From assembly GCA_029066845.1 (NCBI GenBank), contig JAIEFR010000015.1, positions 1 through 64,000 of the forward strand: 64,000 bases of DNA, written 5' to 3'. Positions 25,391 to 27,661 of this stretch are shown here, in pieces. The position numbers and the translations under genes were made by a program. Source of the DNA: Clostridia bacterium. Lineage in GTDB: Bacteria > Bacillota > Clostridia > Christensenellales > Borkfalkiaceae. The stretch's first letter is position 1. Each line of letters starts with the position of its first letter. The notes under the pieces are model-generated. The model was not told where the DNA came from. It ran no database searches and was given only the letters and a program-made list of their open reading frames with translations.

Positions 25391-26034
25391 TAGAAATTGA
25401 CAAGTTGAAGTTTGATAGCAACGGATTGATTCCTGCGGTTGTTACAGATTTCTTCAGTAAAAAAGTGCTTACTGTTGCATATATGAACCGTGAGAGTCTG
25501 GAAACCTCTATCCGCGAAGGAAAGACTTGTTTTTGGTCGCGCAGCAGAAAATGCTTATGGCGTAAAGGTGAAACGAGTGGAAATTTTCAGCATATTGTTT
25601 CGATAATTGCCGACTGCGATTATGATGCGTTGACAGTTGAAGTCGTTAAAGATGGACCTGCGTGCCATACCGGAACTGATAGTTGTTTTAATAATTACGT
25701 TTACAGAAGCGATGGCTTGCCCGAATTTTCATTTGACGGACTGTACGCGTTATTGCAGCAAAGACAAACCGAAAAACCAGAAGGTTCGTATACGACGTAT
25801 TTATTCGAGCAAGGAATTGACAAGATATTAAAGAAAGTCGGCGAAGAATCGACTGAGGTTATTGTTGCCGGCAAAGGCGGCGAAAAAGCCGAAACAATTT
25901 ATGAAATTGCCGACCTTGCGTATCACGTAATGGTTCTGATGGTTAATATGGGAATCGAGCCGAAAGATATTGTTGCGGAGCTTGCAAAGCGTCACGTAAT
26001 AGATCATAAAGTAAAACAACAAAAAATGCAGTAA
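25387..26034 (+). CDS. hisI: Bifunctional phosphoribosyl-AMP cyclohydrolase / phosphoribosyl-ATP pyrophosphatase
   Basis: Steps 2 and 3 of histidine synthesis in one polypeptide. The cyclohydrolase domain (1-115) has FWSRSRKCLWRKGETSGN and the zinc-binding DCDYDALTVEV plus HTGTDSCF. The pyrophosphatase (MazG-like) domain (about 118-210) has KKVGEESTEVIVAGK and EIADLAYHVMVLM. It ends the his operon; no convincing intrinsic terminator follows. Confidence 0.97.
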   Translation: MIEIDKLKFDSNGLIPAVVTDFFSKKVLTVAYMNRESLETSIREGKTCFWSRSRKCLWRKGETSGNFQHIVSIIADCDYDALTVEVVKDGPACHTGTDSCFNNYVYRSDGLPEFSFDGLYALLQQRQTEKPEGSYTTYLFEQGIDKILKKVGEESTEVIVAGKGGEKAETIYEIADLAYHVMVLMVNMGIEPKDIVAELAKRHVIDHKVKQQKMQ

Positions 26035-26216: not shown

Positions 26217-26489
26217 AAAAAATGCAGTTTTCACTTCGTAAAAGCTGTGTTTTACGAAGTGTTGCAACCTCTCTACTCCGTCGATTTGTTCGGCGGTTTT
26301 CTCGTTATCGGGGCTTTGTACTGCCTCTCACGCTAACTCTAACCGCATAAAAATGATGTAAATTGTCCGCTCTACTTTGTTTCTCGCCGCCCCTCGCTAT
26401 GAGCGTAGACCCACGCAGAAAAAAAAGAAGATTGATGGGAACCGATAAAATCGTTTTTCACCTTTGCCACGCAGGCAAATCAATCTTCA
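26217..26489 (-). ncRNA. Predicted structured noncoding RNA, about 270 nt
   Basis: A near-consensus minus-strand promoter fires into this block. The predicted 5' end begins GAAGATTGAT, which pairs perfectly with ATCAATCTTC 42 nt later and encloses two smaller hairpins (TTTGCC/GGCAAA and CGAT/ATCG); eight U residues follow at 26426-26419. Beyond lies a GC-rich core with GCGT/ACGC (26403-26416), GGGGC/GCCCC (26389-26393 with 26310-26314), GCGGTT/AACCGC (26341-26346 with 26293-26298) and two GTAGAG copies. It ends in a perfect 12-bp hairpin (26232-26261) within TGCA arms and six U residues. No reading frame fits. Size, host phylum and promoter strength would suit the raiA RNA class, but I could not confirm this. 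The U8 could instead end a 70-nt small RNA. Confidence 0.68.
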
Positions 26490-26495
26490 AACATT

Positions 26496-26524
26496 ATTAT
26501 ATTCAATCATTATAATAAAGTCAA
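26496..26524 (-). promoter_or_regulatory. Strong sigma-A promoter of the structured RNA
   Basis: On the minus strand TTGACT, a 17-nt spacer and TATAAT, with predicted transcription start near 26489, exactly at the first stem of the RNA. Confidence 0.85.
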
Positions 26525-26544
26525 CTGCTTTTTGTAAGTCAACT
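26518..26544. repeat. Two direct copies of AAGTCAACT beside the divergent promoters
   Basis: Copies at 26518-26526 and 26536-26544, start-to-start 18 bp. The first covers the -35 of the RNA promoter. They may be regulator or recombinase binding sites, or a duplicated -35; nothing else supports a choice. Confidence 0.4.
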
Positions 26545-26567
26545 TGAATTATTCGTAAAACGAGCGT

Positions 26568-26596
26568 TTGACTTTTGTCTTTGTGCGGTGTAAACT
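26568..26596 (+). promoter_or_regulatory. Promoter of the tyrosine recombinase gene, placing +1 at the ATG
   Basis: TTGACT at 26568-26573, a 17-nt spacer and TAAACT at 26591-26596. The usual 7-nt distance puts transcription start on the A of the ATG at 26603. A TATAAT at 26596-26601 exists too, but its spacing to TTGACT is 22 nt. Confidence 0.55.
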
Positions 26597-26602
26597 ATAA
26601 TT

Positions 26603-27661
26603 ATGAAAACCAATTCGGACTACTACGCTCAGCGAAATAAAAAGAATATTCAAACGATAGACAGAATTCTGGACGAGGATTTGCCCGCATTCTGCCTTGA
26701 TTACTTTCTGGCGATTGACAGTATGACTTCCACCCTCACCAGGTTAAACTATGCGCACGATTTGAAAATTTTCTTTGATTTTATGTGCAAAAAGCGTTAC
26801 GGCGGCAATAAGACGGTGAAAGACATATCACTAATTGATTTGGAAAACGTGACGAACAACGACATTGAATATTTCCTCGTCTACCTTTCCCATTACGAGT
26901 ACGGCGGCACGGAACACACCTGCAACGAGCGTGCGAAGGCGCGCAAGCTCTCCTCTGTGCGCGCAATGTTTAAATATTTCTTTAATAAAGGTCAGATTTC
27001 GGTGGACAATTCCGCAAAGGTTGCCACGCCAAAACTGCACGAAAAGCCGATAATCCGGCTTGACGGCAACGAAGTTTTCAACATTATAGACACTGCTGAA
27101 AGCGGAAACGGGCTTACTCCCCACCAGCGCGCATATCACGAGAAAAATAAAGTGCGTGACACCGCCATTCTAATTCTATTTCTCGGCACGGGTATCCGTA
27201 TAAGCGAATTGGTCGGACTGAATAACGAGGATATAAATTTCAAGGATAATTCGTTTTTGGTGACTAGAAAGGGCGGAAGCAAGTCTATACTTTTCTTTGA
27301 TGATGACGTAGCGGACGCGTTGAAGAAGTATCTGGATTATAAAGAGGAAACCGAGCTTGACAATAGCGGCGACGGCGCCCTCTTCCTTTCCTCTCAGAAA
27401 AAGCGCATTACGGTGCGCGCGGTGGAAAATCTGGTGCAAAAATATGCAAAAATCGTTTCGCCGTTAAAGAAAATTTCTCCGCACAAATTGCGCAGTACGT
27501 ACGGCACGCAGCTGTATAAAGCGACCGGTGATATTTATATTGTGGCTGACGTTTTGGGGCACAAGGACGTAAATACAACGCGTAAGCACTACGCTGCAAT
27601 CAGTGAGGATACGCGCCGTGCTGTTGCCGGAAAAGTTAAACTGCGGCGCGACGACGAATAA
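26603..27661 (+). CDS. Tyrosine recombinase (XerC/D-like, phage integrase family)
   Basis: Breaks and rejoins DNA through a 3'-phosphotyrosyl intermediate. The N-terminal SAM-like core-binding domain spans about 25-135 and the catalytic domain about 160-345. Catalytic residues are visible: Arg near 198 (GTGIRISELVGL), His294 and Arg297 (SPHKLRSTYG), His320 (LGHKDVNTT) and Tyr330 (RKHY). 352 aa is somewhat longer than XerC/XerD (about 300), mostly before the core. No excisionase, att repeats or cargo are next to it, and the flanking genes are housekeeping, so a resident Xer-type enzyme is as likely as a mobile-element remnant. There is no Shine-Dalgarno before the ATG. Confidence 0.9.
   Translation: MKTNSDYYAQRNKKNIQTIDRILDEDLPAFCLDYFLAIDSMTSTLTRLNYAHDLKIFFDFMCKKRYGGNKTVKDISLIDLENVTNNDIEYFLVYLSHYEYGGTEHTCNERAKARKLSSVRAMFKYFFNKGQISVDNSAKVATPKLHEKPIIRLDGNEVFNIIDTAESGNGLTPHQRAYHEKNKVRDTAILILFLGTGIRISELVGLNNEDINFKDNSFLVTRKGGSKSILFFDDDVADALKKYLDYKEETELDNSGDGALFLSSQKKRITVRAVENLVQKYAKIVSPLKKISPHKLRSTYGTQLYKATGDIYIVADVLGHKDVNTTRKHYAAISEDTRRAVAGKVKLRRDDE

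Follow-up and report, generated by a model that had tools for sequence, protein, structure and literature searches.

Our analysis of the window (the whole 64,000-nt stretch of Clostridia bacterium DNA considered here, from a source genome of 1.56 Mb and 99.1% completeness) identified what we are highly confident is a new RNA family paired with one small protein-coding gene, which we call GHP from its GHPxYVY motif. The copy of the RNA in the window lacks this gene, and lies in a 568-nt block whose gene-free character, described in an earlier note made from the letters alone, was borne out: it is bounded by hisIE (stop at 26034) on one side and by a tyrosine recombinase gene (start at 26603) on the other. 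Judging from sequence, the block appears to hold two separate items that are unrelated as far as we could see, an orphan copy of the small RNA (sRNA) and a dif-type recombination site. We regard our best overall explanation—a new sRNA family with an antisense or immunity action, next to a separate dif site—as an evenly balanced proposition, with its component claims graded individually below.

The sRNA promoter (26496..26524, minus strand) comprises a -35 element TTGACT at 26524-26519, a 17-nt spacer and a -10 element TATAAT at 26501-26496, scoring 11/12 and confirming the minus-strand TTGACT/17/TATAAT promoter of the earlier note; promoter-like sites number 8 in the 1.7-kb region vs. 4.5 +/- 2.1 in shuffles. 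The perfect 10-bp closing stem into which the promoter had been said to fire is likewise present, placed at the expected transcription start and formed by the 5' strand of P1, GAAGATTGAT (26479..26488, minus strand), pairing with 26427-26436. Between the two P1 strands lie a P2 hairpin (TTGCC-TGCGT-GGCAA; 26464..26478, minus strand), whose counterpart in the related genome G075 is TTGTC/GACA with one pair changed on both sides, and a P3 arm (26437..26462, minus strand) containing a GAAAAACGATTTTATCGGT motif that is conserved in the family comparison. The 3' strand of P1 runs straight into eight T residues (26426-26419), together spanning 26419..26436 on the minus strand in an intrinsic-terminator layout, and the closing stem with its U run resembles a terminator for the sRNA. 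Because the T8 run directly follows the 10-bp stem, we take the RNA to be ~71 nt and not 273 nt long (26419..26489, minus strand), with a predicted 5' end set by the -10 element and a predicted 3' end set by the T8 run. We describe it as a three-way-junction sRNA on the basis of its fold (z = -3.15), its homologues and their covariation.

That z-score belongs to the 76-nt unit at 26416-26491, whose complement, palindromic too, reaches z = -4.16; fold energy alone is thus no guide to the strand. No fold signal and no homologue were found for the stretch between the dif-type site and the sRNA (26265..26415, assigned to no strand): 26266-26415, presented earlier as a 'GC-rich core' with long-range pairing, folds no better than shuffles (z = -0.31, with 76 of 200 shuffles equally good), and in 93 genomes of the genus these 150 nt gave no match better than E = 0.019 lying wholly inside them. 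The whole 278 nt reached z = -2.25 on the claimed strand and z = -2.97 on the opposite strand. An RNA running the full length of 26217-26489, as first proposed, would have a well-placed promoter and a T6 run (26222-26217) ~10 nt beyond its second hairpin, where the earlier note had put its end, but the T8 run after ~71 nt, a middle without fold or homologue, and a dif-type site at the 3' end make a single RNA of 273 nt extremely improbable. The suggestion of an RNA system, perhaps of a new class, holds for the ~71-nt unit, with its covariation, its family's own promoters and no Rfam match, and not for the 273 nt.

When block positions 26265-26600 were searched against the 93 genus genomes, strong matches outside the source genome were limited to G097 (E = 8e-29, window 26411-26505, 89% identity) and G075 (E = 1.4e-10, window 26419-26507, 77% identity), both confined to the RNA plus its -10 element. 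A search with the whole 278 nt in 61 genomes matched 30 of them: the source genome, 28 that matched the 12-bp hairpin alone, and G059, which matched another 22-nt stretch without the 12-bp hairpin.

Among known RNAs, no Rfam 15 family matched the sRNA at its gathering score, with chance-level matches only below it, the best of these on the window RNA being SpF39 at 23.7 bits vs. a gathering score of 60. The raiA RNA is a structured RNA of Clostridia, and membership of its class had been suggested for this locus; the raiA model (RF03072, 209 positions vs. 71 nt here) had no match at E <= 1 in the source genome and none at gathering score in the window, and a raiA identity was rejected. The search for 6S and ROOL RNAs that the earlier note had asked for was negative too, both across the window with the gathering score as limit and across the block with a limit of E <= 10; a 6S match at L118:2417-2599 falls outside the sRNA. 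The window RNA found no match in phage sequences, nor did the RNA pattern, GHP or one G2P protein in viral contigs. Titles and opening parts of abstracts among the papers listed in literature searches yielded no description of the RNA family, which is not proof of novelty.

To define the family we used two successive RNA models. Counting the source genome, the model R1, built from three sequences, had hits at E <= 0.1 in 11 of the 93 genomes of the genus and at E <= 0.01 in 7 of the 396 genomes of the order, and at E <= 0.1 it matched 12 of 18 named pattern-match loci (one, L136, taken as chance). The model R2 matched, at E <= 0.001 and again counting the source genome, at least 13 of 93 genus and at least 14 of 396 order genomes, these counts being lower bounds with at most 43 (genus) or 10 (order) candidates scored per genome. 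The relatives that carry the sRNA are metagenome-assembled genomes (MAGs) of uncultured Clostridia, and their contigs and related prophages are non-independent samples. From these comparisons the family appears to consist of ~65-95-nt three-way-junction sRNAs with a sigma-70-type promoter of their own.

Covariation among homologues, which the earlier note had named as a check, is present. In alignment A6 (37 rows, 36 distinct), which was fitted to the model and so favours pairing, 95.3% of cells are paired vs. 77.1% when shuffled and 34-64% in slid controls, and 18 of 20 pairs, including all 9 of P1, have changed on both sides. Earlier alignment sets agree with this result; the MAFFT alignments A3 and A4, in which P1 was misplaced, were left out. 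The RNA set likewise excludes L136 (19.5 bits) and L116, a partial copy of 24.7 bits, and the list of 35 copies omits L128 and L125 as repeats of L167 and L186. Across these 35 copies the RNA strand is favoured by 41 G.U pairs vs. 5 A.C (binomial p = 4e-8, with cells that are not independent). Promoters scored at least 9/12 in 32 of 35 copies and below 9/12 in three, with the -10 element lying partly inside the models; the -35 element, which lies outside both RNA models, scored at least 5/6 on its own in 31 of 35 vs. 1.27 in shuffles. One locus, L193 (G390), carries three tandem copies at 1454-1788, ~120 bp apart, with weak E-values of 1.3e-4 to 0.0054.

The partner gene, GHP, is a small gene found in 13 larger sRNA loci, and it is convergent with the RNA in all 13. 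To avoid conditioning on the RNA, we then searched for GHP independently of it, and found it in 11 of 93 genus genomes (12 matches); among the 396 genomes of the order, 21 had it, with 23 matches spread over 21 contigs. All 12 genus loci had an RNA match at the convergent place, which was the top match in 10 and was outscored by a second copy nearby in the other two, and the top RNA match lay at the convergent place in all 16 further loci of the order. Overall, a tail-to-tail match to the RNA model was present at 34 of 34 GHP places scanned (the 12 genus loci, the 16 further order loci, 5 order loci known before, and L140, leaving out L239, a second GHP match on one contig). Of these matches 17 reach E <= 0.001, and the weakest by E-value (L213 at 5.7, L223 at 0.85, L235 at 0.71 and L214 at 0.44) rest on position and promoter. 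At divergent GHP loci the promoter scored at least 9/12 in 21 of 21 and the -35 element at least 5/6 in 17 of 21 (vs. 0.80 in shuffles), with a stem followed by a T run seen by eye and fold z-scores ranging from -0.18 to -6.1. The edge of the RNA model lies between -37 nt (inside the gene) and +56 nt of the GHP end in 32 of 34 places, and at 201 nt in L224 and 397 nt in L216, the GHP end at divergent loci being the end of the profile match.

Eleven aligned GHPs are basic proteins of 107-133 aa (pI 9.8-10.6), only one of which has a membrane segment evident by eye; divergent GHPs can be longer, such as a 229-aa frame in L213. Searches of Pfam, PHROGs, NCBIfam, PADLOC and PDB sequences gave no convincing relative, only weak matches by single members, the best being to PADLOC MkoB (1 of 11 members, 0.0021) and to Pfam RA (1 of 11, 0.01), and one GHP searched in phages and plasmids had no match. 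On one 7.5-kb contig (L248, G315:C13) a single GHP gene is repeated, once close to each end and in inverted order, which may reflect a replicating form of the phage or a fault of assembly.

Zot-like and G2P-type proteins are marks of filamentous phages, and many GHP loci encode a protein resembling Zot (PF05707, phrog_197) and a replication protein of the G2P type (PF23343), some also having what we take to be an IS30-like transposase. With the 3.7-kb contig of G179 left out, a Zot- or G2P-like gene was found on the examined piece at 19 of 33 GHP places (weakly at L241); phage context rises to 27 of 33 when two further genes, recurrent but without a name, are included, and 6 places show neither. 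Many sRNA copies sit in filamentous (inovirus-like) prophages of gut Clostridia. Within these phages the sRNA keeps to GHP and has no fixed position, as in L244 and L249, where GHP is on one side of it and the following large gene on the other, with G2P kilobases away. A ~720-750-aa protein (L174 6474-8720, L176 10559-12718) recurs on many pieces with GHP and sRNA, and its L174 copy had no Pfam or PHROG match.

The RNA also occurs alone. Among the 35 copies, 13 abut GHP and a further 3 are additional copies within such phages, whereas 19, including the window copy, have no GHP nearby; for the window, the profile search found no GHP match anywhere in the source genome. GHP absence near orphans was assessed with tblastn on the surrounding pieces, and genome-wide with the profile for the searched genomes, a set that does not include that of L138. 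One of the 19 orphans (G030) adjoins a G2P gene, and one orphan-bearing genome (G328) has GHP elsewhere. The phage copy nearest to the window RNA by BLAST is that of G097, with whose sense transcript the window RNA has a predicted pairing energy of -109 kcal/mol, vs. a mean of -24 and a lowest value of -38.5 kcal/mol in 200 random phage-locus controls. With 11 other phage copies the predicted energies ranged from -24 to -57 kcal/mol, 7 of them beyond -38.5 and 4 within the control range.

Sequence supports the promoter, fold, strand, convergent partner and phage carrier of the sRNA and the existence of orphan copies; what we infer is its transcription, an antisense action on GHP or the operon transcript, GHP toxicity and immunity in trans by orphan copies. 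In the phage, a constitutive antisense RNA would run into the GHP transcript at its 3' end, as well as into read-through mRNA of the operon, and RNA-RNA pairing would limit GHP expression, in the manner of convergent prophage antitoxin RNAs. GHP would then be a toxin or another phage protein kept in check, and orphan copies, the window's included, would act or have acted in trans against related incoming phages. We hold this antisense, antitoxin- or immunity-like mechanism tentatively, at somewhat less than even likelihood; speaking against it, the sRNA has a conserved fold, which an RNA acting purely as antisense would not require. The finding that GHP comes with the RNA wherever scanned, while the RNA is sometimes alone, fits a toxin-antitoxin pair, but equally a protein with an obligate RNA regulator. 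A broader proposal, possible but on balance doubtful, would have an obligate sRNA-GHP module of filamentous phages serving expression control or addiction, with stray copies adopted as RNA-only immunity; in this proposal, and with the same doubt, adoption would be by chromosomes of gut Clostridia, and in this lineage between dif and xer.

Alternatively, the sRNA may be a structured partner of the GHP protein in a ribonucleoprotein, either type III-antitoxin-like or a phage regulator, with convergence being incidental; its fold with the conserved P3 motif, the strongly basic character of GHP, and the presence of the RNA at all 34 GHP places while it can itself lack GHP would suit such a partnership. 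The P1 sequence, however, diverges widely between GHP loci, and the antitoxins of type III systems, whose toxins have a Kid/PemK-like fold, are RNA repeats that precede the toxin gene on its own strand. What the loci described here share with type III (ToxIN-like) systems is a structured RNA with a basic protein, and a few loci have two or three RNA copies, whereas the layout is convergent, the RNA forms a three-way junction and no repeat array lies upstream of the gene; we rate this partnership as a possibility of less than even weight, comparable to the broader proposal above. Filamentous phages keep packaging and origin signals between morphogenesis and rep genes, and the copies in L165, L167 and L168 lie between morphogenesis-type and rep genes. 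Together with the conserved promoter and a hairpin complement that folds equally well, this position would be consistent with a signal on phage single-stranded DNA, either for packaging or as a complementary-strand origin with a primer-RNA promoter, but the element tracks GHP rather than a fixed genome place (L244, L249), wobble pairs favour the RNA strand by 41:5, and promoter-bearing copies occur outside recognisable phages, making such a signal quite improbable.

A strict type I toxin-antitoxin system, with GHP as the toxin and the sRNA as its cis-antisense antitoxin, appears unlikely to us, if less so than a DNA signal. The shared feature is a convergent RNA at the small gene's 3' end, as in the type I prophage pairs txpA/RatA, yonT/SR6 and C. 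difficile RCd8-10; convergent prophage layouts with touching 3' ends are described in the accounts of the C. difficile type I pairs (PMC6563280) and of yonT/SR6 (PMC5848175). The GHP-bearing copies have this convergent-antisense arrangement and the window copy, without GHP, does not. Lysine-rich C-termini are a further point in common with the C. difficile type I toxins, but those toxins are given as 34-59 aa with a transmembrane domain (PMC6563280), whereas GHP is about twice as long, strongly basic and, by eye, without a membrane segment in 10 of 11 members. At 107-133 aa and pI 9.8-10.6, it is not the small (<~60 aa) hydrophobic protein that defines a type I toxin, and the sRNA differs from type I antitoxins in its conserved three-way junction and in having copies without the gene. 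For the antisense or immunity-like mechanism that we favour, a comparison by published description only is svsR (PMC12803456), an sRNA that a lambdoid E. coli prophage encodes and that has been linked with the restriction of infection by phages, the likeness being that of a prophage sRNA limiting phages, a role that is hypothetical here.

The second item in the block accounts for the perfect 12-bp hairpin that the earlier note had read as a terminator. The inverted repeat is indeed perfect (26232-26243/26250-26261), and its most plausible identity is the 28-bp dif site belonging to an Xer system with a single recombinase, ACTTCGTAAAA-GCTGTG-TTTTACGAAGT (11+6+11; 26233..26260, assigned to no strand), a candidate assignment based on conservation, copy number and GC skew. 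The terminator part of the claim was rejected: the terminator scan found none at 26232-26261, no T run directly follows the stem, and among 54 sites from the source genome and its relatives a T5 run lies within 3 nt of the dif arm in none and within 20 nt in 9, the window being one of these.

The source genome contains no other dif match with fewer than 3 mismatches, and across the genus exactly one copy (<= 1 mismatch) is present in 76 of 93 genomes and none in 17, with a reversed control found in 3. One-mismatch hits in G003 and G069, which have no xer on the piece, may be due to chance. The centre CACAGC (GCTGTG on the other strand) occurs in 35 of 50 genomes. Cumulative GC skew, taken on three contigs rather than whole chromosomes, has its maximum close to the dif site in each: at 198,390 vs. 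198,308 in G026 (82 bp), 29,825 vs. 26,235 in G000 (3.6 kb) and 107,474 vs. 103,944 in G030 (3.5 kb). We also observed that, from one species to another, the outer bases on the two sides of the dif palindrome (L001-L030) often vary in step (AC/GT, TA/TA, TC/GA), L008 and L012 being among the exceptions.

The gene beside the site encodes a 352-aa Xer-type tyrosine recombinase (26603..27661, plus strand), the sole PF00589 match in the genome, preceded by a promoter-like site TTGACT-17-TAAACT (26568..26596, plus strand, 9/12). Among the NCBIfam matches listed, its best is XerS (NF003462) at 199.6 bits, which does not reach the cut-off of 267. To place dif relative to xer we took 54 of the 76 site-bearing genomes, 50 of which could be placed and four of which have no xer on the piece (G065 without xer within 1.5 kb, G075 with xer on another contig, G008 and G032 near contig ends); in 50 of 50 placed loci dif precedes xer and is oriented the same way, at a distance of 57-874 bp from the start of the gene. 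A single dif arm, TATTCGTAAAA (26550..26560, plus strand), additionally lies between the divergent promoters of xer and the sRNA. In 18 of 50 genomes, vs. 0.18 expected in shuffles, the 120 nt preceding xer contain such a lone arm, TTCGTAAA, separate from dif, which sits at -44 to -63 in 16 of these 18, and the half-site may possibly serve as an Xer operator for self-regulation.

The dif-xer gap varies in length and content among relatives, and seems to collect insertions. In L014 and L016, for instance, a frame that we take to be GNAT-like is present in this gap together with a promoter-like site. Of the Xer proteins compared, that of G075 is the most similar (94%); in this genome 3.8 kb separate dif from the end of its contig, and xer is on a different contig, 2.3 kb after the start, which would make the gap at least 6 kb if both contigs are adjacent. 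On its xer side, G075 (L143, L144) carries a Phd/ParE toxin-antitoxin pair and another sRNA copy; a second dif-like site around the insertion in G075 was looked for and rejected, the best matches elsewhere being 19/28 (L143) and 18/28 (L144).

Compared with known systems, the Xer/dif pair here fits the single-recombinase kind without being XerS proper. As in the XerS and XerH systems, a sole Xer of ~350 aa has its site beside the gene, an association that the account of these systems describes as kept (PMC5357621); difSL, at 31 bp with an 11-bp centre according to the same source, differs from the 28 bp and 6-bp centre found here. Long uninterrupted arms are a feature in common with the dif site of Legionella (XerL/dif), which is reported to lie >400 kb from xerL (PMC9765430). 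A site near the GC-skew maximum is shared with XerS/difSL, XerH/difH and XerL/dif alike.

Collectively, the sRNA matters as an RNA that has no Rfam match, accompanies one phage protein wherever scanned, and is kept alone elsewhere, and it poses the concrete, testable question of whether it serves as an antitoxin, confers immunity or regulates the phage. As a candidate system for resolving chromosome dimers, the dif-type site and the single Xer concern a large genus of Clostridia that are uncultured, and a half-site before xer may add self-regulation.
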